From the NCBI RefSeq assembly GCF_018070025.1, contig NZ_JAGPYQ010000002.1, forward strand, positions 1,798,001 to 1,862,000: a DNA stretch of 64,000 nt. Direction: 5' to 3'. Position 1 is the first letter of the stretch. Every line of letters begins with the position of its first letter. Source of the stretch: Streptomyces liliiviolaceus (lineage in GTDB: Bacteria; Actinomycetota; Actinomycetes; Streptomycetales; Streptomycetaceae). Both the position numbers and the translations under genes were made by a program. Positions 49,632-62,445 of this stretch are shown here, piece by piece. Below the pieces are notes generated by a model. It ran no database searches. It was not told where the DNA came from and worked only from the letters and a program-made list of their open reading frames with translations.

Positions 49632-49641
49632 GAGGGTGCCG

Positions 49642-49671
49642 GTCGCCGGTCGGCGGCCGTCGGCCGGCGAC
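49642..49671. terminator. Stem-loop after the TetR gene
   Basis: GTCGCCGG (49642-49649) and CCGGCGAC (49664-49671) pair perfectly over a 14-base GC-rich loop, 11 bases past the TetR stop. It likely separates the TetR gene from the large operon that begins at 49800. Confidence 0.6.
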
Positions 49672-49761
49672 TGCCCTTCAGCGGTCGGCGGTTGGCTCGA
49701 AAGCGACTGCGGCCGTTGCCCGGTGGCTCCGGAAGGGCGTTGTCAGTGGTCTCACCTAGAG

Positions 49762-49793
49762 TTCTCCGCACTTGATCAGTGAAGTGCGGGGAG
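49762..49793 (+). promoter_or_regulatory. Hairpin that includes the Shine-Dalgarno of the first operon gene
   Basis: TTCTCCGCACTT (49762-49773) pairs with AAGTGCGGGGAG (49782-49793), 12 bp with two G-U pairs, around an 8-base loop. The 3' arm contains the GGGGAG of the ribosome site for the DUF4132 gene (GGGGAGG at 49788-49794; ATG at 49800). A TAGAGT hexamer (49757-49762), matching the Streptomyces -10 pattern, touches its 5' edge. If transcription begins about 49769, most of the 5' arm is not in the RNA and the dyad is instead a DNA operator; if the start lies further upstream, it can sequester the ribosome site. Confidence 0.55.
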
Positions 49794-49799
49794 GCACAT

Positions 49800-50654
49800 A
49801 TGGGGTGGGTCACGGCCGGCGATTACGAGGTCGGCCTCGACGGCGGAAAGGTGGTGTGCCGCAACGCGGCGGGACGGCAGTTGAAGTCAGTACCGCCCAA
49901 ACTCGCCGAGGATCCCGCGGTCATGGGACTGCGGCAGCTCGCCGAGTGGCTGGAGCGGCACGAGCGCCAGTGCCTCACCGACGTCGAGAACTGGATGGTG
50001 CGCTCGCTTCCGGTGCCCTTCGCGGTCATCGCGCGGGTGTGGCCGGATCCCGCCTGGCAGAGCGCGCTCCGCGATCTCGTCGTCACCGGCCCGGACGACG
50101 AGGTGGCCGGATTCCTGCGGGACGTCGACCTCGACCGCGGTCTCGGTCTGGTCGACCTCGACGGAGACAGCGTGCGCATCACTCCCGAACTGGTCCGTCT
50201 CCCCCATCCCGTCCTTCTGGACGACCTGGAGGAGCTGCGGGAGTTCGCCGTCGAGATCGGTGTGGAACAGCGCGCCCAGCAGCTCTTCCGCGAGGTGTGG
50301 CACCGTCCCGCGGCCGTCGACGCCGAAGCCACCACCGTGGAGGAGTACGCGGGCGGCGCGTTCAAGCAACTGCGCTTCCTGCAGGGCCGCACCACCCAGC
50401 ACGGATACCGCGTGCGCGGCGGCAACGCGGTCTGCTCCGTGCGGGAGGACTCCCGCGCCATCGAGGCCCGCGTCTGGATCGGCGACTACGACACCTACGA
50501 GCAGACCGAGACCGGCCCCCTGATGTGGACGGACGGCGCGGGCCGGGTGCTGAAGCTCGGTCAGGTGGGGCCCGTCGCCTGGTCGGAGGGCATGCGCATG
50601 GCGGCCACCCTGTTCGCCGGGCGGGACATCGAGGACGAGGAGCAGGCGGCATGA
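49800..50654 (+). CDS. DUF4132-domain protein, first gene of the MoxR-VWA operon
   Basis: This 284-aa protein has the DUF4132 pattern at about residues 75-175. A helical stretch ALRDLVV and an RVTED-like GLVDLDGD are followed by VRLPHPVLLDDLEELREF with the conserved HP, and then AQQLFREVWHRP. The C-terminal part continues in the fold that follows DUF4132 in larger WGR-DUF4132 proteins such as Escherichia coli YehI. It is much shorter than those proteins (over 1000 aa), so it could be a split-off C-terminal half. The ATG at 49800 has GGGGAGG five bases upstream. It overlaps the next gene by four bases (ATGA). Function is unknown. Confidence 0.7.
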   Translation: MGWVTAGDYEVGLDGGKVVCRNAAGRQLKSVPPKLAEDPAVMGLRQLAEWLERHERQCLTDVENWMVRSLPVPFAVIARVWPDPAWQSALRDLVVTGPDDEVAGFLRDVDLDRGLGLVDLDGDSVRITPELVRLPHPVLLDDLEELREFAVEIGVEQRAQQLFREVWHRPAAVDAEATTVEEYAGGAFKQLRFLQGRTTQHGYRVRGGNAVCSVREDSRAIEARVWIGDYDTYEQTETGPLMWTDGAGRVLKLGQVGPVAWSEGMRMAATLFAGRDIEDEEQAA

Positions 50655-53600
50655 CCACGTACGCGCACATCGACACGGCCGCGCTGCTCGAAGCGGGCGC
50701 CGTCCTGCCCCCGGGCACCCACACCGGCGACGACGCCGACACCCTCACCGTGCGGACGTACAGCCATCCCGCGCTGGACGGCCGGGTGGCCGTCCGTCTC
50801 GTGCCGGGCACTCTCGGCGAGGCCGAGGACCTGGCGCTGGAGTTCCTCGGTCTGGCCCGTGACCCGGAGACGCCCGAGGTCGGCCAGGTCCGCCGCGAGA
50901 CCCTGGGCTTCCCCGCCTGGGCGCTGGTCAACGACCCTGCCAACGGCCACCACGCACTGGCGCTGGTCAAGGACGTCGAACGGCTCGCGCGCCAGGCCAA
51001 GTCCCGCCCCGGCACGGCCAAGGAGGGCTTCGAGGCACTCGGCGAGCGGCTCGGCCGGGCCGTGCCGCACTTCCTGCCGACCTTCTACGAGCAGGCCGCG
51101 CGGGTCTTCCTCCAGCACGAGAACACGACGTACGGGGCCACCTTCTTCGGCAAGGCCCGCGAGGCCGAGCGGGTGCACGCGCTCACCGTCGACGAGGAGC
51201 GGCAGCGTGCCGTGTTCCTGGAGTTCGCCTTCGCCGGCGCGCTCACGGTCAAGGCGCTCAAGGAGCATGTGAAGGCTCTGGCCCACCGGCTCGACCCTGC
51301 CACGGCGTGGGCGCAGTTCCGGCAGCTGTGCGTGGAGCGCTGCGCGGCCGGCATGCCGCCGTACGCGTCTCTGCCGCAGGACGCCCGTGGTCTGATCAAG
51401 GCCGCCGGGCTCGACCGGGTCACCGAGGAATGCGCCTTCGTGGCCGACCTGGTCGCCTCGCCCGCCGCGGTGCGGGCGCCCGCCTCCTTCTGGACGGCGT
51501 ACCGGGCCACCCTCGCCGTCCTCACCGAGCGGCGACCGGCCGTACGGGCCCGGCTGCTGGAGATCATGCCGACCGGCCTGGGACGCGACGTCAAGAACGA
51601 CGAGTTCTGGCTCACGCTGCTCATGGAGAGCGGCGCCGACCGCCTGCTCACCGGCGAGGACGACGAGAACGGCGTGCGCTCCGCGGGCGCCGAGGCCGAC
51701 GTGGTCGACGCGGAAGACGCGGAAGACGCGGTCGACGCGACTCGTGGCGGCGGCACGGCGGACGGCATCGACGCGGCGGACTGGCTCAGCCGCTGGGCCG
51801 CCCACCGCAAGCACGGCGCCACGGTCAGCGGGCGCTCCCCGCTCACCCTGCGGCTCGTCGAACGGATGGCGCCGCGGCTGCGCGCCGACGGCCGGGCCGT
51901 GGACCTCTTCACGGGCCGCTGGTACGCCGGTGCCGACCTCGACCTGCTGGACCTGTGCGTGGCGCAGGGCGTCCCGCTCGCGATGCCCGCCGCGGACAAG
52001 GACGTGCATCTGGCCCTCGACCGCTGGCTCCGCGAACAGCAGCCCGACGGACGCGACCTGGTCGCCACCGCCGCGGACGCACGCTGCCGGCCACTGCTGC
52101 ACCGGGCCATCGGGACGCTCGGCAACGACCGTTCGCTCTCCGCCAAGCTGCTGGAGAGCCTGGCCGACCACCCCGTGCTGAACGACGTGCTGCGCGAATG
52201 GCTGGACGACGCGGCCGAGACGTTCGGCGCGTCGACCGGCCTGCCCGGCGCCCGCGCGGCCCTCCAGCACCTGCGCCCCTTCCGTCCGGTCGCCACCCGG
52301 GTGAGCCCGGGAGCGGTCGCCCGCGTCGCGGGGCACGAGATCGCGCCGCTGCTCGGCCGCACCCTGCGGGCCGGCATCCCCGACGAGCTGGGCTGGCCCG
52401 CCCTCGACGAGGCGCTGCGGCTCATGGACAGTGAGACCGGCCGCCACCAGGACGACCAGCTGCGCCTCACGGAGGCCTGGCCCGCCCTGATCCTCTCCCG
52501 CGGCCACAAAGCCGTCGTCGTCGGCCCGGACGGAATACTCCTCGACCACGAGGTGCGGATGCCCGTCGAGCTGGAGCGCTGGACGTATCCGCGGTTCCGC
52601 TTCACCGACGGTGAACTGCTCGTGATGTGGCGGCATGACAACAAGCAGTTCGGCTACTGGTCCGCCCGGCCGTCCGAGGTGTTCACCCTCGGCGGCGAAC
52701 AACTGCCGTACTGGTACGGCAGTGAAACCACCGACCCCTCCATCCCGCTGTCCGGCGGCGGCCGTGCCACCGGCGGACGCACCCTGCACGCCGGAGACAC
52801 CGTCCTGCCCGCCGACCGGCCCGTCATCGGTGACGGCACGACGTGCTGGCGTCAGGGCAGGCAGGGGCTGCAGCAGGTCTGGCTGGAGTACGACCCGACC
52901 ACCGGAACGCACGGACGTGCGTCCCTGCCCGCCTTCCTCCGGTCGGGCATCCGTGAGGACACCACGCTCCTGCCGCACCACTGCCAGGTCCTGCCGCTGC
53001 AACCCGGCCTCGAACAGAGCCCGTTCGGCACCGACGGCACGGTCCTGGGCCGCTGGGTGCGCTCCGAGGGCACCGGAGCCGAGGCCCGGACGACCACCGG
53101 TACGCCGGACGGCCGGACCGTCACCCGGCCGTCGGCCGACAGCCGGTCCGGGGGCCTACCCCTCGGCGCGCTGCGGCTGCCCGGCGGCGCCGAGCCCGTC
53201 GCGGCACAGTTCCACCAGCAGGTCGCGCTGTTCGCCGCCGAGGACACCTCCGACTCCGGCGAACTCGGCCGGGTGACACCCGGTCAGCGCGGCGGAGAGT
53301 TCGCAGCCGGTACGCGGCTCGTACCGCCGCTCGCCTTCTGGCACGCTCTGCGCCCCCGTGACGAGCAGGCCTCCGCCGTGCTGCGGGCGCTCACCGACAG
53401 GACGGCGGCCGAGATCCTGGCCGCCGCGGACCGCGCCCTGGCAGAGCGGCGGGCCCAGCTCCACAAGGCCGGTGACACCCTGCGCGGCACGGGTGACGCG
53501 GCCAGGACGACCGCCGACGGCAAGCCCGCCGTCGCGTCCGCGGACACCTTCGTCAGAGGCGTCGTGTCCAAGGCCCTGCCCGGTCTCACCGACGAGCGGC

Positions 53601-55765
53601 TGCTCACCGGTGTGTCCGCCCTGGTCCAGGCGGCGCTCCGCGTCGTCGGATCGGTCGGCACGTTCGTGGAACCGCCGGTCGAGCGTCCGCAGGCCGACCG
53701 CCGGCGGACCGAGGGCATGTTCCCCGACTACAGCCCCGTGCACGGCGACGACCGGTCCGTGCGCACGGCCGTCGACGGCCTCGCCGACATGTGGGGAGGC
53801 TGGGGCGGCGAATCCCAGTGGACCGCTCTGCGCCAGATCCGGTCCGTGAACCATGTCCTGTCCGGACGGCCCGCGGAGGGCAAACCGCTGCCCGAACTCG
53901 CCCGGACGGGCGCCGTCGGTGACGGATGGCGCAGCGAGGAACACACGATCCCCGGCATGGGCAGCGCGTGGACGTCCCTGCTCGCCGCGCTTCGGCCCTT
54001 GGCCTACCGGGCCGCCACGCCCGTGGCGAGCGAGGCCGTGCGGGAAGCACTGCTCCTGCTCTTCGAAGCGATCACCGAAGGGCCGCTCGCCACACCCGGG
54101 AGCGGGTTGCGCGAGATCGTACTGAGCGAGCCGCACACCAAGCACCAGCGTGTCGGTCAGGTGCTCCGCAGGAAGGGCCGGACCGTGGTCGTCCTCGGCT
54201 GCGAGAACGTCGACAACCAGCACGGCCGCATCAGTTGGCTCGCCCTCGACCACGACCCCTCCGCCGCGTTCGGCGCCGTCGCCCACTTCACCCTGGAGAA
54301 GGAGACCCCGGTGGTGTCGGCGTTCCCCGAGAACGGGCTCGCCGCCGTCACCCGGCTGATCCGGGACAAGGGCGCCGCCCCGTGGCTGCCCGAGGCACCC
54401 GCCGCGTTCGCCGACGCGACCCGCGGCGGACTGGGCCCCGTCCAGGCCACCGTGCTGCTCGCCGGGCGTCCGCAGGATCCCGGAGCCGACGCCCTCGCGA
54501 CGATCGGACTCAAGCCCCGGCAGCTGGACCTGGGCAACGGCCGTCTGTCGTCGCTCGGCCGGGAGGACCGGTCCGCGCTGCTGAGCGCCCTGCTGCCCGA
54601 GGACCCCGCGGACCTGTGGACCACCGGTCCCGACACCGCGGCCGCGGGCCGGGTGTGGGCCGAGCGGCTCGGTTCCGTCGTCCGGCTGCCCGAGGACCTG
54701 GCGGTCGATCTCGCCGGACTGCCCGCCGGTTTCGCCGAGTCCGTGCTCAATCCGGGGCTCACCCCCTGGATGAGCCGGACCACTGTGCAGCGCCCGGACA
54801 AGGACGGCGACCTCGTCGCGGCGGACCCCGCCGCGCTGCCCGGGGCGCACGACCTGACCCGCGCGGTGGCGGCACTGGCCTCACTCGCCTACGCCCTGCC
54901 GTACGGGCACCCACTGCGCGCCTCCCTGCCCGAGGGCCTCGCCGCCCTGCGGCACCGCCTCACCGACCCCGAGCTGCTCCTCGCACTCGACGTCATGTGG
55001 ACGGAGAAGGGCGGCTCGACGGCGGTCGAACTGCGCAAGGCGTACGGGCTTCCCGCCACCGGGGGCGCCGACGCGTACGGCCTGACAACCGTCGGGGAGG
55101 CCCTCGCGCTCCGGCCCTGGTACGCCGAGCGGGAGACGGTCCTGTTGCGCCCCGCCGCCCTGACCGGTCCGGACGACGCGGTCATCGGGCTCCTCGCGGG
55201 CCTGGTGGGTCCGCAGCGCGACGCCGGTGTCCAGTCCCTGCGTGCGATCCTCGACGACGAGCTGGCCCACGCGCTGAGGGCCGGCACGGACCCCGAAGGC
55301 CCCGCCGGGTACGCCCAGGACCCGACCGTCTGCGCTCCCGCACTGGTCGCCGAGGTGGCCGCGGCACACGGTCTGGGCGAGGACGCGGCGACGCTCTACC
55401 TCCAGCTGCTGGCCCTGCCCGATCCGACGGACCGCAACTGCGCCCGCTGGACCGGCTGGAAGCCCGCCCGGTTGAAGAAGGCCCGCGCCGAACTGGCCGC
55501 CACCGACCTGGTGGTCGAGGCGAAGCGACCGCGCGCCGGGCGCACCCTCTTCCTGCCGTGCGGCTGGCTCGACCTCAAGTCCCCCGCCCTGCCGGTGGAG
55601 ACCTGGAAGGAGAGCCTGTACCCGATACGCGCGAACACGCGTGCCGTGCCGCTCCTGCCGGTGCCCGAGCTGTTCGCCCGCGCCTGGCGACGCGTCCAGG
55701 ACGGGGACGCGCCCGCCTACGAGCAGCTCACCACCCGCGCCACCCGGAAGGGCCGCCGCCGATGA
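50651..55765 (+). CDS. 1704-aa protein of unknown function in the MoxR-VWA operon
   Basis: The gene encodes a giant 1704-aa protein with no signal peptide or membrane helix. I do not recognise a domain with certainty. The N-terminal 340 residues are mainly helical, and an acidic low-complexity run of Asp/Glu/Ala-Val repeats lies at about 344-372, encoded by 9-bp repeats near 51703-51740. Residues about 600-1000 look like a beta-rich repeat region with many Trp/Tyr-Gly pairs. The C-terminal 200 are helical with a Lys/Arg-rich end. It may be the N-terminal partner of the DUF4132 protein encoded just upstream, the two together corresponding to a large WGR-DUF4132 protein. The ATG overlaps the upstream stop; its TGA overlaps a 25-aa micro-ORF. 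Confidence 0.6.
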   Translation: MTTYAHIDTAALLEAGAVLPPGTHTGDDADTLTVRTYSHPALDGRVAVRLVPGTLGEAEDLALEFLGLARDPETPEVGQVRRETLGFPAWALVNDPANGHHALALVKDVERLARQAKSRPGTAKEGFEALGERLGRAVPHFLPTFYEQAARVFLQHENTTYGATFFGKAREAERVHALTVDEERQRAVFLEFAFAGALTVKALKEHVKALAHRLDPATAWAQFRQLCVERCAAGMPPYASLPQDARGLIKAAGLDRVTEECAFVADLVASPAAVRAPASFWTAYRATLAVLTERRPAVRARLLEIMPTGLGRDVKNDEFWLTLLMESGADRLLTGEDDENGVRSAGAEADVVDAEDAEDAVDATRGGGTADGIDAADWLSRWAAHRKHGATVSGRSPLTLRLVERMAPRLRADGRAVDLFTGRWYAGADLDLLDLCVAQGVPLAMPAADKDVHLALDRWLREQQPDGRDLVATAADARCRPLLHRAIGTLGNDRSLSAKLLESLADHPVLNDVLREWLDDAAETFGASTGLPGARAALQHLRPFRPVATRVSPGAVARVAGHEIAPLLGRTLRAGIPDELGWPALDEALRLMDSETGRHQDDQLRLTEAWPALILSRGHKAVVVGPDGILLDHEVRMPVELERWTYPRFRFTDGELLVMWRHDNKQFGYWSARPSEVFTLGGEQLPYWYGSETTDPSIPLSGGGRATGGRTLHAGDTVLPADRPVIGDGTTCWRQGRQGLQQVWLEYDPTTGTHGRASLPAFLRSGIREDTTLLPHHCQVLPLQPGLEQSPFGTDGTVLGRWVRSEGTGAEARTTTGTPDGRTVTRPSADSRSGGLPLGALRLPGGAEPVAAQFHQQVALFAAEDTSDSGELGRVTPGQRGGEFAAGTRLVPPLAFWHALRPRDEQASAVLRALTDRTAAEILAAADRALAERRAQLHKAGDTLRGTGDAARTTADGKPAVASADTFVRGVVSKALPGLTDERLLTGVSALVQAALRVVGSVGTFVEPPVERPQADRRRTEGMFPDYSPVHGDDRSVRTAVDGLADMWGGWGGESQWTALRQIRSVNHVLSGRPAEGKPLPELARTGAVGDGWRSEEHTIPGMGSAWTSLLAALRPLAYRAATPVASEAVREALLLLFEAITEGPLATPGSGLREIVLSEPHTKHQRVGQVLRRKGRTVVVLGCENVDNQHGRISWLALDHDPSAAFGAVAHFTLEKETPVVSAFPENGLAAVTRLIRDKGAAPWLPEAPAAFADATRGGLGPVQATVLLAGRPQDPGADALATIGLKPRQLDLGNGRLSSLGREDRSALLSALLPEDPADLWTTGPDTAAAGRVWAERLGSVVRLPEDLAVDLAGLPAGFAESVLNPGLTPWMSRTTVQRPDKDGDLVAADPAALPGAHDLTRAVAALASLAYALPYGHPLRASLPEGLAALRHRLTDPELLLALDVMWTEKGGSTAVELRKAYGLPATGGADAYGLTTVGEALALRPWYAERETVLLRPAALTGPDDAVIGLLAGLVGPQRDAGVQSLRAILDDELAHALRAGTDPEGPAGYAQDPTVCAPALVAEVAAAHGLGEDAATLYLQLLALPDPTDRNCARWTGWKPARLKKARAELAATDLVVEAKRPRAGRTLFLPCGWLDLKSPALPVETWKESLYPIRANTRAVPLLPVPELFARAWRRVQDGDAPAYEQLTTRATRKGRRR

Positions 55766-55839
55766 CCGCCCACCAGGTGACGCCCCCTCTCCCGATGATC
55801 CCGCTGCCCCACCGACTTGACCGGACGGACCACCGATGA
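55762..55839 (+). CDS. 25-aa bridging micro-ORF, overlapping both neighbours
   Basis: A 25-codon frame (opening MTAHQVTPPLP, ending RTDHR) starts at an ATG that overlaps the TGA of the giant gene by four bases (ATGA) and ends in a TGA that overlaps the ATG of the AAA+ gene by four bases (ATGA). It fills the gap exactly. This is the arrangement of a translation relay: ribosomes finishing the giant gene re-initiate, cross 75 bases and re-initiate again. The peptide is Pro/His/Arg rich with no recognisable fold. It could be a true small protein, but a coupling role is enough to explain it. Confidence 0.55.
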   Translation: MTAHQVTPPLPMIPLPHRLDRTDHR

Positions 55840-57005
55840 CCACCACCCTGGCCCCCTCCCCGGGCCGCCAGATCACCCCGCCCGAGGACCGGCACGCCAC
55901 CGAGCTGGCCTTCCTGGCCGCGTACGACGACGGGCCCCGTCCGCCGGCGTGGCGGCTCACACCCCGCGCCGTCGTCACGTTCGTCATGGGCAGCGACGGC
56001 CGGGCCCTGCAACTTCCCAATGGCTCCCAGGTGCCCGAAGGCGTGCCGCGGCGCCTCGTGGTCGAGGGGAAGTTCGTCGGCGACCGTGCCCTGGTCGAGC
56101 GGTGTGTCGTCACCCTCGCCGGTGAGCGCGGGCTGCTGCTCGTCGGCGAGCCCGGCACCGCCAAGTCCATGCTGTCCGAGCTGCTGTCCGCCGCGGTCTG
56201 CGGCACCAGCGGCCTGGTCGTCCAGGGCACCGCGGGCACGACGGAGGACCAGCTCAAGTACGGCTGGAATTACGCCCTGTTGCTGGCCCAGGGCCCCAGC
56301 CGGCAGGCCCTGGTGCCGTCGCCCGTCCTGACCGCCATGACCAGGGGCGCCGTCGCCCGGGTGGAGGAGGTCACCCGCTGTCTGCCCGAAGTGCAGGACG
56401 CGCTGGTGTCGTTGCTGTCCGAGCGGCGCATCGCCGTGCCCGAACTGGCGGGCAGCGAGGACGCCCTGGCCCACGCGGCGCCCGGCTTCACCCTCATCGC
56501 GACCGCCAACCTGCGCGACAAGGGCGTCTCCGAGATGTCGGCCGCGCTCAAGCGCCGCTTCAACTTCGAGACCATCGGCCCCATCGCGGACCTCGACGCC
56601 GAGACCGCGCTCGTCCGCAGTCAGGCCCGTGCCTCGGTCGAGCGCGCCGGGGCACCCTTCAAGGTCGACGACGCCGTACTGGAAGCCCTCGTCACGGCCT
56701 TCCGGGATCTGCGGGAGGGCCGGTCCGCGGAGGGCTGGGAGGTCGAGCGGCCCTCCACGGTGATGAGCACCGCGGAAGCCGTGTCCGTCGCGGGCGCCCT
56801 CGGACTCGCCGCCGCCTACTTCCCCGGCGACCGCGACGTCCTCGGCCTGCTGCCGGGCCATCTGCTCGGCGTGGTCCGCAAGGACGACCCCGCCGACGCG
56901 GCCCGGCTCCGCGGCTACTGGGACGGCCCCGTCAGGCGCCGCGCCGAGCAGGGCTCCGCCACCTGGCGCACCCTGTGGGACCTGCGCACCGTCCTGGAGG
57001 ACTGA
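55836..57005 (+). CDS. MoxR-type AAA+ ATPase with atypical Walker B
   Basis: This 389-aa AAA+ ATPase of the MoxR branch is equivalent to Escherichia coli YehL. Walker A is GEPGTAKS (G104-S111, Lys110). The place of Walker B is GAVARVEEVTR with Val176-Glu177-Glu178, so the usual Asp is a Glu. This seems to be a trait of the group, but it should alter catalysis. Sensor 1 is in LIATANLRDKG (Asn) and the Arg finger region in LKRRFNFETI. The substrates are unknown. MoxR ATPases usually work with a VWA partner as chaperones or remodelling factors, and the VWA protein is encoded next. The ATG overlaps the micro-ORF stop. Confidence 0.88.
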   Translation: MTTTLAPSPGRQITPPEDRHATELAFLAAYDDGPRPPAWRLTPRAVVTFVMGSDGRALQLPNGSQVPEGVPRRLVVEGKFVGDRALVERCVVTLAGERGLLLVGEPGTAKSMLSELLSAAVCGTSGLVVQGTAGTTEDQLKYGWNYALLLAQGPSRQALVPSPVLTAMTRGAVARVEEVTRCLPEVQDALVSLLSERRIAVPELAGSEDALAHAAPGFTLIATANLRDKGVSEMSAALKRRFNFETIGPIADLDAETALVRSQARASVERAGAPFKVDDAVLEALVTAFRDLREGRSAEGWEVERPSTVMSTAEAVSVAGALGLAAAYFPGDRDVLGLLPGHLLGVVRKDDPADAARLRGYWDGPVRRRAEQGSATWRTLWDLRTVLED

Positions 57006-57010
57006 CCACC

Positions 57011-60000
57011 GTGCCCCTCACCCCCGAGGAAGCCGTCGCGGCTCTCACCGACCCGGCGGCTCCCTATCTCATCGGCGTCCGGCATCACGCGCCCTCGCTG
57101 GCCGCGGCCGTGCCCGCGCTGCTGGACGCGGCCGCGCCGGACGTGCTGCTCGTCGAACTCCCCGACGAGATGCAGGAATGGCTGCCCTGGCTCAGCCATG
57201 AGGAGACGCGGGCACCGGTCGCCCTCGCCGCCGCCCCCCGTGACGGGGGCGGCGGCCGGGGCCCGGCCTTCTATCCGTTCGCCGACTTCTCACCCGAACT
57301 GGCCGCCGTGCGCTGGGCCGCACGGCAAGACGTGCCGGTCCTCACCTGCGACCTGCCACTCGCCGACCGCGCGTGGAGCGCCGGCCGTGAGGGGACGGAC
57401 CGGTCCGCGGGCCCGTTGCCGACCGGAGGTCCCGCACCTGCTTCGGCGCCGGACCCTGCCCCGGCCACCCAGGCCGCGGCGGGCCTCGGCACCGCCCTGC
57501 GCGCGCGGCTGACCGGCCGTCCGGGTGACGACCTCTGGGACCGCCTCGTCGAGGCCGCCGCCCCAGGCTCGTCTCCCGAAGCGCTGCGGCGCGCCGCGCT
57601 CCTGACGGGCTGGGCGCTGCGCGCGGAGGCGGCGGCCTCGGGCGGCGTGCCCGAGCTGGACCTTCGGCGTGAGGAATGGATGCGCGCCCGGCTGGCCGCC
57701 GCCACCGCGAACGGCGAACGGGCCGCCGTGGTCGTCGGTGCCTTCCACGCCCCGGCGTTGACGGCACCGGCGTCCTCGGGCTCATCGGCGCCCTTGAGAA
57801 CATCACCGGCGTCGCCGGACTCAGGCGCGGAGAGCCCGGCGTCCTCCCTCAAAAGCACCGCCACCGCCGCTCCGGCAGCCTGGACGACCTCCCTCATCCC
57901 CTACACCTACGCGCTTCTCGACGAGCGGTCCGGCTATCCGGCGGGGATCCGGGACCCGGAGTGGCAGCATCTCGTGCTGCGTGCGGCGGGCGATCCGGTC
58001 GTGCTGGAGGAGTCCCTGACACGCGCCGCCGTACAGGTCTGTGCCGAACTGCGCACCATGGGCCACCCGTCGGGCCCCGCCGAGGCCCGGGAGATCAGCC
58101 GCCTCGCCGGAGACCTCGCCCGGCTGCGCGGCCTCCCCGCGGCAGGCCGTGGCGAACTGGTCGAGGCGGTGCAGACGGTCCTCACACAGGGTGAGCCGTA
58201 CGGGCGCGGCCGGGCCGTGGCGCGGGCGATGGAGCGGGTGCTCGTCGGAAAGCGCGGTGGCCGCCCGGCCCCCGGTGGGCCCCGCAGCGGACTCGCTCCG
58301 GCGGTGGAGGACGAGTTGGCGGAGCTGCGGCTGCCCGGGCCCGACAGCCACGGCGCCGACGCCACTCGGGAACTGCGACTGGACCCGCTGCGCTCCGACC
58401 TGGACCGCCGCCGCGAACTGCTGCTGCACCGCCTGACCGTGTGCGGTGTGCCGTACGGGGAGCCCAGGGAATCCGTCGGCGCCGGCGGCACGGAGGCCCT
58501 GACCTCGCGCTGGGAGGTGCGCTGGACACCCGCCACCGCGGCCATGCTGACCGCGGCCGGTGTCAGGGGAGTCACCCCCGCGCAGGCCTCCGAAGGTCTG
58601 CTGCGTGAACGGCGGCGGGCCGAGCAGGACGAGGGCGGGCCCACGGCCGCACAGACCCTGCAGGGGCTTCGGCAGGCGGCGGAGTGCGGCCTGTCGGACC
58701 TCACCGACGAACGTCTCGCCGAGGTCCGTGACGTACTGCCCGGGTCCGCCACGCTCCCGGAACTCCTCGGCGCCCTGGCCCTGTTGGACCGGCTGCGGAC
58801 GGGCCATGTCGCGGGTCTCGGCGCCGACGAGGAACGTACCGCCACGGTGGTCGCCGTGGCGGAGTTGCTGACCGCCGCGGCGGTGCGGCAGGTCGACGGC
58901 CTCACCGGCTCCGAGGAGCCGGCCGACGCGCACGCACTGGTCGAACTCGCCCATCGAGCCGATCTGTTGGGGGGCATACGGCTCACCGACGCACTCGCCC
59001 GGCTGGCCGCCGACGGCTCCCCGCTGATGCGCGGCGCCGCCGGAGCCGTACGGGTGCTCCTCGGACACGAGGATCCGCGCGCGCTCGGCGACCGGATCGC
59101 CTCCTGGGTCGACGGGGCCGGCACTCCCGAGGCCCGCGCCACCCTCACCGATCGTCTCGTCGGCGTACTGACCGCCGCCGGTCCGCTGCTGGAGGCGGCG
59201 GCGCCCGCGCTGGAGCCGCTGCTCAACCGGGTGTCCGAGATGCCCGACCGGGACCTGCTCGATCGGCTGCCCGCGCTCCGGGGAGGCTTCGACGCGCTCA
59301 GCCCCGCGGCCCGCGACCGGCTGCTCGACATCGTCGAGGAGCGTCTGGCCACCACACGGCTGAGCGACACCGGAGGCGTCGACCCCGTCGCGCTCGCCAC
59401 CTGGACCCGCGCGGACCTCGCGGCCCGCGCCGCCCTGCGCACGCTCGGACTGCTGCCACCCCCCGCGGACGGCCTCGCCCCGGCGGCGGAGGCCCCCGCA
59501 CCGCACAAGGCCGATGAAGGAGCCCCTGAGGATCATGTCCTCGGGGCCGCCGATCGGTGGCGGCTCGTGCTCGGCCGCCGTACGGATCAACTGCCGTCCT
59601 CGGCTTCGGCGTTGGCGACCGCGCTGGACGAGCTGTACGGCAGCGGACGCGGCGAGGGCAGCAGGGGCGGGCTGGACGGACCGGGCTCACGCGGCGGCCG
59701 TGAAGCTCCGTACCCGGGTGTGCGCGAGTGGTCCGAGGAACTCGCCGCCCTGTTCGGCCCGGGCATCCGGGAAGAGGTGCTGGCGGCCGCCGCCGCGGCG
59801 GGCCGCAAGGACGTTCTCGCCGAACTGGATCCGGCGAGCGTGCGGCCCTCCGTCGACCTGCTGCGTACCGTGCTCCGGCACGCGGGAGGACTGCCCGAGG
59901 CACGACTGGCCGCACTGCGCCCCCTGGTCCGCCGCCTGGTCGAGGCGCTGACCCGGGAACTGGCCACGCGGCTGCGTCCCGCGCTGCACGGTACGACCCT

Positions 60001-60643
60001 GCCGCGCCCCAGCCGGCGGCCGGGCGGCGGACTCGATCTGTCCCGCACCCTGCGCGCCAACCTCGCGACGGCACGCCGCGCCCCGGACGGGACCGTCCAG
60101 GTCGTTCCGGAGCACCCCGTGTTCCGCTCGCGCGCCAAACGCGCCGCGGACTGGCGGCTGATCCTGGTCACCGACGTGTCCGGGTCCATGGAGGCCTCGA
60201 CGGTCTGGGCCGCGCTCACGGCGTCGGTCCTGGCGGGCGTACCGACCCTGTCGACGCACTTCCTGGCCTTCTCCACGGAGGTCATCGACCTCACCGGCCA
60301 TGTCGACGATCCGCTGTCGCTGCTGCTTGAGGTCAGTGTGGGCGGCGGCACCCACATCGCCGCGGGGCTGCGCCATGCCCGCGAGCTCGTCACCGTGCCG
60401 TCCCGCACCCTCGTCGTGGTCGTCAGCGACTTCGAGGAGGGGTATCCCATCGGGGGCCTGCTCGCCGAGGTCCGCAACCTCGTCGGGGCGGGCTGCCATG
60501 TCCTGGGCTGCGCGAGCCTCGACGACACCGGCCGCCCCCGGTACTCGACCGGCGTCGCCGGACAGCTCGTCTCCGCGGGCATGCCCGTCGCCGCCCTCAG
60601 CCCGCTCGAACTCGCCCGCTGGGTAGGGGAGAAAGTCTCATGA
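57011..60643 (+). CDS. DUF5682 - VWA fusion protein, probable MoxR partner
   Basis: This 1210-aa protein joins two parts that are separate in Escherichia coli (YehM and YehP). Residues about 18-800 are DUF5682, with the family opening GVRHHAPS (G22-H26), VLLVELPDEM and FYPFADFSPE (about 90-99). It is broken by Pro/Ala-rich loops. Residues about 1045-1210 are a VWA domain with a complete MIDAS: D1055-V-S-G-S1059, T1114 (GGGTHI) and D1140 (VSDFEEG). The start is GTG at 57011, five bases after the AAA+ stop, with GGAGGA upstream. VWA domains in MoxR systems recruit clients or the ATPase through a metal ion. It is coupled to the SWIM gene by ATGA. Confidence 0.85.
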   Translation: MPLTPEEAVAALTDPAAPYLIGVRHHAPSLAAAVPALLDAAAPDVLLVELPDEMQEWLPWLSHEETRAPVALAAAPRDGGGGRGPAFYPFADFSPELAAVRWAARQDVPVLTCDLPLADRAWSAGREGTDRSAGPLPTGGPAPASAPDPAPATQAAAGLGTALRARLTGRPGDDLWDRLVEAAAPGSSPEALRRAALLTGWALRAEAAASGGVPELDLRREEWMRARLAAATANGERAAVVVGAFHAPALTAPASSGSSAPLRTSPASPDSGAESPASSLKSTATAAPAAWTTSLIPYTYALLDERSGYPAGIRDPEWQHLVLRAAGDPVVLEESLTRAAVQVCAELRTMGHPSGPAEAREISRLAGDLARLRGLPAAGRGELVEAVQTVLTQGEPYGRGRAVARAMERVLVGKRGGRPAPGGPRSGLAPAVEDELAELRLPGPDSHGADATRELRLDPLRSDLDRRRELLLHRLTVCGVPYGEPRESVGAGGTEALTSRWEVRWTPATAAMLTAAGVRGVTPAQASEGLLRERRRAEQDEGGPTAAQTLQGLRQAAECGLSDLTDERLAEVRDVLPGSATLPELLGALALLDRLRTGHVAGLGADEERTATVVAVAELLTAAAVRQVDGLTGSEEPADAHALVELAHRADLLGGIRLTDALARLAADGSPLMRGAAGAVRVLLGHEDPRALGDRIASWVDGAGTPEARATLTDRLVGVLTAAGPLLEAAAPALEPLLNRVSEMPDRDLLDRLPALRGGFDALSPAARDRLLDIVEERLATTRLSDTGGVDPVALATWTRADLAARAALRTLGLLPPPADGLAPAAEAPAPHKADEGAPEDHVLGAADRWRLVLGRRTDQLPSSASALATALDELYGSGRGEGSRGGLDGPGSRGGREAPYPGVREWSEELAALFGPGIREEVLAAAAAAGRKDVLAELDPASVRPSVDLLRTVLRHAGGLPEARLAALRPLVRRLVEALTRELATRLRPALHGTTLPRPSRRPGGGLDLSRTLRANLATARRAPDGTVQVVPEHPVFRSRAKRAADWRLILVTDVSGSMEASTVWAALTASVLAGVPTLSTHFLAFSTEVIDLTGHVDDPLSLLLEVSVGGGTHIAAGLRHARELVTVPSRTLVVVVSDFEEGYPIGGLLAEVRNLVGAGCHVLGCASLDDTGRPRYSTGVAGQLVSAGMPVAALSPLELARWVGEKVS

Positions 60644-62445
60644 GCCTCGACCTGCCTCCGGTCGCCCCGTCCGTGACCGCCGCTCTCGTCCAGGGGCTCA
60701 CCCCCCGCCTCCGCAAGCGGCTGGACGCCGGCATCACCAAGCTCGCGGACCGCCCACGTGTCCGCGACGGCGACACCGTGCGCATCGCCGTCGACGACGA
60801 CACCAGCCTCGAACTGCACGCCCCCGGCGGCAGCGTGACCAGCGCGGACGCGATCCGTTGCGGCTGTCTGCTGGCACCGGACTGCCTGCACCGCGCGGCC
60901 GCCGCCTCGGCCGCCCCGATCGCCGAGGCCGAGCACGAGGCCGAGCCCGAACCGGATGCGCGGCCAGAGCAGGAGCCGGGCTCTGGGTCCGGCTCGGACA
61001 CCGGCGCCGGGTCTCCGCCCCCGTCGGCCCCTGAAGCAGGGGCGGAGTCCGAGACCGCGACCCCCGAGCAGCGCCTCGCCGCGCTGGCGATGTACGACGC
61101 CACGGCCGCCGTGCTCGAAGCGGGTACGGACGGGGCCGGGGCCGTGCTTCAGGCGGAGTTGCTGCGTGCCGCGCACACCGCGCGGGTCGGCGGGCTGCCC
61201 AGGGTCGCCGCCTCGGCGGTCTCCGTGGTCACCCAGCTCCGGGCCGCCCGCAGCGCCGACCCGGCGTACCGCCTCACCGATCTCACCGCGGCTCTCCGTG
61301 ACGTCCTCATGACGGCCCATCGCCTTCCGGACGCCACCGATGCCGAACTCGCCGATCTGCGCGGCACCGCACGACAGCCCTACGCCCCGGACGGGTCCCT
61401 GCGGTTGTACGGACTGTTCTCCGAGCCCGTCCTGACGGCGACCGGTTACGCGGGAGCGGTCACCTGGACGGCCGACGCCGACGGCAGGCTGTACACGGTC
61501 TCCGATGTCGCCCCGGGCGGTTCCGGCCGGGCCGTGGGTGCGGCCGGCCGGGCGGTGCGGGTCGGGGACACGGCTCTCACCCATCGGGAGCTGTCGCGGG
61601 CCGGGCTCGCCGTGTCCGGCGCGACCGTCTCCCCGACGGGCCGACTCGGCGCGGGTGCGGGCGTGCGGGCCGTGCGGGCGGCGGGTGCCTCCTGGAGCGA
61701 GGCCCCTCTCGACAGCCTGTGGCAGGTACCGGTCGCCGAACAGGTGTCGCGTGCCCTGACCGGCACCGGCGGGGACGGGCTGCTGTTCCTCGACGTGACC
61801 CTCACCGGGACGGTCCGCGAGGCGGCGGGCGACTGTCTGCTCGCCGACTGCGACGGCCTGACGCTCCGTCTGGCCGCCGCGCACGACCACCCCGCGCTGC
61901 CCTACCGCGACAACCTCCGTCTCCTCGCGACCGCTCCGGGCACCCGTTTGCGCGTCGTCGCCCACCTCGACGCCTCTCCCGTGCCCCGGGCTCTGCTGGT
62001 CGCCGCGGGCCACCCCACTGACGCCGGGGCCCATGTCGACCTGGGCCTCGACCGCCTCCAGCAGGCGGACCTGCCCGCTCCCACGACGGTCTCCACGGTG
62101 CCGGTGCCGGTGCCGGTGTCGGCCGGTTCGCCGCCCGCCGTCCTGGACGAGGCGCCGCTGCACGTGCTGCGACGCCGTGTCCACCAGGCGGCCTCGGCGG
62201 GCCGTCGCGTGCTCGCCTTCCCCGGTGACAGTGCCGCCGACAGCAGGCGTCTGAGCCGGTACGGCTTCGCCTGCGCCGGAGACCTCCTCGGCGAACTCCA
62301 CGCCGCTGCCGCCGACCGGTCCCGCGACGTCTTCGGCCGTCTCGTCCCCGCCGACCTCGACCGGTTCGCCCGCGCCTGGCTCGCGGCGGCCCACTACACC
62401 GAGGAGGTGGACCGGGCGCTGTGCGCCGCGGCGTGGGGCGCCTGA
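60640..62445 (+). CDS. SWIM zinc-finger protein, last gene of the MoxR-VWA operon
   Basis: This 601-aa protein has a SWIM-type zinc site C74-x-C76-x5-C82-x-H84 (IRCGCLLAPDCLHRAA). It lies after a first domain that opens LTPRLRKRLDAGITKLADRP (about 20-40), typical of YehQ-like proteins. A Pro/Glu/Ser-rich linker (about 95-140) follows, then a large mainly beta part with OB-like segments. SWIM domains bind DNA, RNA or protein. It is the sixth coding region of the operon and corresponds to Escherichia coli YehQ. The ATG overlaps the VWA stop. It converges with the aminotransferase gene 28 bases on, with no strong terminator in the gap. Confidence 0.88.
   Translation: MSLDLPPVAPSVTAALVQGLTPRLRKRLDAGITKLADRPRVRDGDTVRIAVDDDTSLELHAPGGSVTSADAIRCGCLLAPDCLHRAAAASAAPIAEAEHEAEPEPDARPEQEPGSGSGSDTGAGSPPPSAPEAGAESETATPEQRLAALAMYDATAAVLEAGTDGAGAVLQAELLRAAHTARVGGLPRVAASAVSVVTQLRAARSADPAYRLTDLTAALRDVLMTAHRLPDATDAELADLRGTARQPYAPDGSLRLYGLFSEPVLTATGYAGAVTWTADADGRLYTVSDVAPGGSGRAVGAAGRAVRVGDTALTHRELSRAGLAVSGATVSPTGRLGAGAGVRAVRAAGASWSEAPLDSLWQVPVAEQVSRALTGTGGDGLLFLDVTLTGTVREAAGDCLLADCDGLTLRLAAAHDHPALPYRDNLRLLATAPGTRLRVVAHLDASPVPRALLVAAGHPTDAGAHVDLGLDRLQQADLPAPTTVSTVPVPVPVSAGSPPAVLDEAPLHVLRRRVHQAASAGRRVLAFPGDSAADSRRLSRYGFACAGDLLGELHAAAADRSRDVFGRLVPADLDRFARAWLAAAHYTEEVDRALCAAAWGA

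Follow-up and report, generated by a model that had tools for sequence, protein, structure and literature searches.

The window analysed here, a 64,000-nucleotide stretch of Streptomyces liliiviolaceus DNA (C2:1798001-1862000 of the 11.1-Mb genome), contains an operon of six coupled reading frames for a DUF4132 protein, a very large protein that we call the giant, a micro-ORF, a MoxR AAA+ ATPase, a fusion of DUF5682 with a VWA domain, and a SWIM-motif protein. We propose that its products probably form a protein-remodelling machine driven by ATP, of the YehL class of MoxR/VWA systems and most likely switched on by DNA damage. The regulatory half of the proposal, DNA-damage control via a RecA-NDp (PafBC-type) promoter, is very likely in view of the promoter sequences described below; the mechanistic half, in which MoxR and VWA work as a remodelling machine, is tentative and falls somewhat short of being likely.

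An exact match to the RecA-NDp promoter (TTGTCAGTG-N8-TAGAGT, 0 mismatches) lies at positions 49740-49762 of the window, on the + strand like all window features described below, and ends 37 bases before the DUF4132 start; the consensus letters used for this match and for all scoring are those that we take to be the RecA-NDp consensus. The genome contains 35 exact sites, against none for the reversed control pattern, and two of the 35 belong to its two DUF5682 loci. Thirty of the sites were given loci, with the downstream gene picked by a simple coding score, and 20 of these 30 were scanned with Pfam. Nine of the 20 downstream genes belong to DNA repair, replication or precursors (RecA, UvrA, a UvrB-type protein, O6-methylguanine methyltransferase, uracil-DNA glycosylase, AlkZ, DnaX, ThyX and a DEAD helicase), and ten are without an evident damage link (two ABC-transporter proteins, a sigma factor, ribosomal S6, DUF4253, a HAD hydrolase, SUKH-4, an amine oxidase, a lectin domain and one familyless protein). 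The remaining one is a Cas3 HD-domain frame that starts 34 nt after its exact site (L053, G000:C1:4426420-4426442), so that DNA damage would control a CRISPR effector gene. In 10 of the 30 loci (L036-L065) the start codon lies 7-9 nt past the -10 hexamer, suggesting leaderless transcripts, unlike the window operon. Published descriptions have PafBC act through RecA-NDp to turn on damage genes that do not depend on LexA/RecA, and have the promoter reach beyond mycobacteria (PMC8223512, PMC6789036). In S. coelicolor, recA and the UV-inducible SCO6735 are preceded by it (PMC5087735).

The promoter is conserved in related operons. We compared 80 loci, the best 80 of 410 relatives (79 from Streptomyces and 1 from Actinacidiphila), in which the best motif score within 250 bp upstream of DUF4132 is 12/12 in 45 loci, 11/12 in 25 and 10/12 in 10. 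Of 1600 random 250-bp windows drawn from these loci, with the site possibly inside some of them, 20 reach at least 10/12. Being related, the loci do not count as separate cases. Column information averages 1.71 bits for TTGTCRGTG, 2.00 bits for TA plus the final T and 0.87 for the spacer, compared with 0.41 bits in the 40 bases before the promoter and 0.97 in the 30 after, and the peak of conservation coincides with the promoter motif. Operons of seven relatives, one of which (L029) is from Catenulispora pinisilvae as judged by its giant, score 10, 10, 10, 10, 11, 12 and 12, hence at least 10/12 in 7/7. A conserved leader element follows at 49769-49778 (CACTTGATCA): the pattern AC[CT]TGATC is found no more than 25 nt from the -10 in 59 of the 80 loci, and near the -10 of none of the 30 other RecA-NDp sites. 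In the window this core is part of an inverted repeat in the leader (CCGCACTTGATCAGTGAAGTGCGG, 49767-49790). Control of the operon by LexA was considered and rejected: a LexA box at up to 1 mismatch occurs in only 1 of the 80 upstream regions, and none was found at up to 2 mismatches within 49640-49800.

The same promoter is found at the second DUF5682 locus of the genome (L003, G000:C1:430000-449000), where genes for SWIM (553 aa) and DUF5691 lie on one strand and those for MoxR, DUF5682 and VWA on the opposite strand, with RecA-NDp sites toward both arms. This sister locus shares with the window operon the four core families (DUF5682, MoxR, VWA and SWIM) and the RecA-NDp sites, but it is divergent, has DUF5691 in place of DUF4132 and the giant, and keeps DUF5682 and VWA separate. 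From a sample of 30 sister loci we dropped 7 (3 with a short upstream region, 1 without MoxR, 3 with a misplaced start) and used 23. Toward MoxR the score is 11/12 in 22 of the 23 and 10/12 in one; toward SWIM it is 12/12 in 21, while the other two (L154 and L174), whose upstream sequence is just 133 and 168 bp long, score 6 and 7. At least 10/12 is reached by 16 of 520 random 300-bp windows taken from either strand.

Among the 11 WYL matches in the genome are tandem WYL genes at C2:1131982-1133160, candidates for pafBC, of which such an arrangement is expected. In the motif search of PMC9380542 the M. smegmatis PafBC motif is described as not conserved in S. venezuelae, casting doubt on a PafBC-type response in Streptomyces, and the conserved promoter reported here bears on the existence of such a response. 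In a pafBC mutant of Mycobacterium smegmatis, MoxR1, MoxR2 and one VWA protein are reduced (PMC5656591); these may be relatives of the window system, and we do not count them as support.

Damage control of related genes also appears in published lists. E. coli molR is among the listed SOS genes in PMC3978071, MolR is described in the LexA regulon according to PMC8533742, and a deletion table places molR directly before yehI (PMC10652928). A LexA-like site with one mismatch precedes yehF, in an 18-kb stretch that has ten such sites where 5.3 are expected. Depletion of DdrO strongly raises expression of the Deinococcus radiodurans operon DRA0165-DRA0166, in which DRA0166 contains a DUF4132 (PMC8533742). 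Read together, these lists and the present promoter data would amount to control by three damage regulators, and a wider proposal, rather unlikely as a whole, can be formulated: YehL-class systems would be a widespread and overlooked arm of the DNA-damage response, its regulators unrelated from phylum to phylum, with PafBC in charge in actinomycetes, LexA in E. coli and DdrO in Deinococcus. Driven by ATP, they would pull out proteins that are bound or crosslinked to damaged DNA and cleave them; DUF5682 would serve as a metalloprotease domain of TraB/Tiki type, and the giant or YehI proteins as scaffolds that bind both DNA and client. In the literature searched, no function turned up for the yeh genes and DUF5682 and DUF5691 were not mentioned; YehL is named as a MoxR subfamily (PMC3893208) and PMC10910872 concerns other MoxR systems. 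With a conserved damage promoter at both Streptomyces versions, and with the published control of molR and of the Deinococcus DUF4132 gene, this unexplained gene set becomes a directly testable DNA-damage pathway.

The six frames of the operon are coupled by four ATGA overlaps (50651, 55762, 55836 and 60640) and a 5-base gap (57006-57010). The six frames, the overlaps and the gap had been given by an earlier reading of this DNA made from its letters alone (the sequence-only reading); coordinates and coupling are exact on re-check. The first gene (49800-50654, start ATG, with GGGGAGG 5' of the start) encodes a protein of 284 aa with its DUF4132 domain at residues 25-201 (Pfam PF13569, 99.5 bits, cut-off 27). 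It is followed by the giant (50651-55765, 1704 aa), which the earlier reading had described as of no known type and for which Pfam, NCBIfam and PADLOC indeed give no family; by the micro-ORF (55762-55839, 25 codons), a leader frame of 25 aa between giant and MoxR; by the YehL-type MoxR AAA+ ATPase (55836-57005, 389 aa), recognized by AAA_5 (129.7 bits) and motifs; by the DUF5682-VWA fusion (57011-60643, 1210 aa, start GTG), which matches PF18934 over residues 34-955 with 714.2 bits and VWA_CoxE over residues 984-1205 with 217.1 bits; and by the SWIM-motif protein (60640-62445, 601 aa). These scores bear out the DUF4132, MoxR and DUF5682-VWA assignments first made from motifs. Pfam at E <= 0.1 returned nothing for the giant, the micro-ORF or the SWIM protein, and an NCBIfam scan of the operon proteins gave matches all far under the cut-offs. 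The proposed SWIM family has in its favour the motif CGCLLAPDCLH (60859-60891; CxCx5CxH, residues 74-84) and the position as last gene, and against it the lack of a Pfam SWIM match.

The ATPase, MIDAS and SWIM motifs are intact in the window operon. The MoxR P-loop GEPGTAKS is found in 73/73 orthologues and A-R-x-E-E-[VI]-T-R in 71/73, the YehL counterpart being R-F-E-E-I-T-R; the CoxE-type VWA domain (59960-60625) carries the MIDAS motif DVSGSM, and C-x-C-x(4-12)-C-x-H is present in all 64 SWIM-protein orthologues found.

The operon resembles the E. coli yehI-yehL-yehM-yehP-yehQ cluster, as the sequence-only reading had recognized. Both have DUF4132, a MoxR protein with the R-x-E-E Walker B variant, DUF5682, a CoxE-type VWA and a SWIM-motif protein, the order MoxR-DUF5682-VWA-SWIM is common to the two, and in seven operons the MoxR protein shares 42-46% identity with YehL. 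The window operon differs in that DUF5682 and VWA are fused, the giant is added, DUF4132 forms a first gene of 284 aa and not the C-terminus of the 1210-aa YehI, and RecA-NDp takes the place of a LexA-type site. Since a large DUF4132 protein of YehI type is missing, the 284-aa protein being too short for the N-terminal 950 residues of YehI, we call the operon, judging from its sequence, a variant of the YehL class and not a new kind. A tblastn search with YehQ against 12 loci gave no match. The idea that the giant is a divergent or split YehI was rejected: hhalign gives a probability of 0.4%, with a profile Neff of about 2.3 that leaves room for a very remote link, and BLASTP of the giant against one WGR-DUF4132 relative of YehI did not support kinship.

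The operon was also compared with the MoxR-vWA beta-propeller ternary systems (PMC7159879), with which it shares a P-loop of the GXXXTAKS type often found there, a vWA partner and, as predicted for the giant, helical repeats plus a propeller in one component. In those systems, however, the vWA is strictly accompanied by a C-terminal propeller and the MIDAS aspartates may be absent, whereas in the window the VWA domain ends the protein (984-1205 of 1210) and its MIDAS is intact. The bpMoxR profile PF20030 gave 19.8 bits, below its cut-off of 27. Because the defining feature, a propeller C-terminal to vWA, is missing, we do not place the window system in the ternary class.

Structure models of the giant predict a TPR-like alpha-solenoid at residues 101-460 (50951-52030), a beta-propeller at residues 571-900 (52361-53350) and a C-terminal winged helix at residues 1555-1636 (55313-55558). 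Foldseek searches with both halves found no match at E <= 0.001 among the families listed in VIA-align. These predicted folds would suit a scaffold at least as well as the role of client or effector proposed earlier for this protein and the DUF4132 protein.

TraB/Tiki hydrolases are defined by two GxxH motifs with acidic motifs between them, and the DUF5682 stretch between two GxxH motifs (residues 22-25 and 243-246; 57074-57748) looks TraB/Tiki-like by motif. GxRHH, E[GL]P, DLP and G[AG][FWY]HxPAL are all present in 61 of 68 DUF5682 ORFs found in the 80 window-type loci and in 28 of 29 found in the 30 sister loci; with versions that proved too strict, the four occur together in all 11 sister ORFs and in a single one of 69 window-type ORFs. 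The TraB profile PF01963 gave 16.4 bits in one of four DUF5682 N-termini scanned (cut-off 26.8), hhalign of the DUF5682 N-terminus against TraB was not significant (probability 2.2%, E 0.022), and a solved-structure search with this N-terminus returned one match only, at chance level.

How such a machine might work is suggested by NorQD, which works by pulling on the linker of its VWA protein (PMC13036017) and offers a model for the motor step. By analogy with NorQ/NorD-like pairs, a MoxR hexamer would bind the VWA domain and pull on a target using ATP. In line with the structure models, the giant would be the scaffold. Its solenoid and propeller would hold protein partners, while its C-terminal winged helix, possibly aided by the SWIM motif, would contact DNA; the ATPase would thereby act on proteins at damaged DNA. 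DUF4132 may be an adaptor common with the yeh system. The most speculative step would have the DUF5682 N-terminus cut the protein once it is extracted, acting as a metal-dependent hydrolase akin to TraB/Tiki. The ATP-driven MoxR/VWA idea of the sequence-only reading holds up at the level of the genes.

The genes stay together. The order DUF4132-giant-MoxR-DUF5682/VWA-SWIM, complete in 64 of the 80 loci, exceeds chance. Fourteen of the 16 incomplete loci reach a contig end, and two (L101 and L141) lack a MoxR match despite about 10 kb of sequence after the giant. The genome itself has one giant, one DUF4132 match and two DUF5682 loci. Across 21 genomes (this one and 20 relatives) the giant has matches in 11; 11 regions were examined in the relatives, namely ten places with giant matches plus a second place in genome G012, and the five genes stand in the same order in 7 relatives, or 8 of the 21 genomes with the window. 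The giant is 99% identical to that of Streptomyces sp. NPDC057621 and has 1295 relatives at E <= 0.001 among 7986 scored. With the Catenulispora giant as query, the best 120 of 1216 proteins include relatives in Micromonospora, Dactylosporangium, Catellatospora, Cryptosporangium, Kineosporia, Saccharothrix, Actinosynnema and others.

The sequence-only reading had called the machine conflict or defence-like, and this is not borne out. PADLOC-DB gave a single weak match, of MoxR to a type II restriction model (E 0.0054, 12.9 bits), and none for the other five proteins; DUF5682 is present in 146 of 150 Streptomyces genomes, often in more than one copy; and the promoter is of damage type. A damage-triggered anti-phage or abortive system could still accommodate that promoter, which would sense phage or prophage stress, after which MoxR/VWA would unleash an effector, for which the giant and the DUF5682 domain are candidates. 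Several predicted conflict systems are built around a MoxR-vWA pair, and the P-loop fits their GXXXTAKS form (PMC7159879), the Cas3 HD-domain gene likewise has a RecA-NDp site, and operons of the giant type are patchy, with the full-length type in the 8 of 21 genomes given above. We nevertheless consider this improbable, as no PADLOC family fits, the near-constant presence of DUF5682 is unlike that of patchy defence genes, and the genes keep one order, in which we see no variable slot for an effector.

The operon could also encode a metalloenzyme maturation chaperone like CoxD/CoxE or NorQ/NorD, the damage promoter supplying repaired or replaced enzyme. The likeness lies in the MoxR plus VWA pair with its CoxE-type VWA domain, and the linker-pulling action of NorQD (PMC13036017) also favours this reading. 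The conserved operon has no metalloenzyme gene, however, and adds DUF5682, DUF4132, SWIM and the giant, whose winged helix and propeller would be left unexplained; the DNA-damage promoter also counts against it. The old link of MolR to molybdate would suit a maturation chaperone, which on balance seems to us quite improbable. Last, the proteins may serve general protein quality control, the promoter match being incidental: MoxR proteins are chaperones in other systems and damage induction of the operon is so far predicted from sequence, but a motif found in 80/80 operons against 20/1600 random windows, and independently at the sister locus, makes an incidental match very hard to believe. A damage-switched remodelling machine is the reading that we prefer.

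The micro-ORF was rejected as a peptide gene. Of 73 loci, 44 have the ATGA or GTGA at the giant stop in the reading frame of MoxR itself, and in the other 29 it opens a separate frame of variable length (12-67 codons); the frame proposed earlier as an operon member is present in the window but is not a conserved gene, and it looks like a variable coupling leader. L101 (S. phaeofaciens) and L141 (S. spongiae), with DUF4132, giant and promoter and no MoxR match in the next 10 kb, would represent either a two-gene version or a recent loss. Two distant giant homologues (L027 and L033) have no MoxR, DUF5682 or SWIM matches within a 19-kb stretch. Finally, proteins of about 950-960 aa at L034 and L035 match only residues 145-336 of the giant, so that this region may be a shared module.

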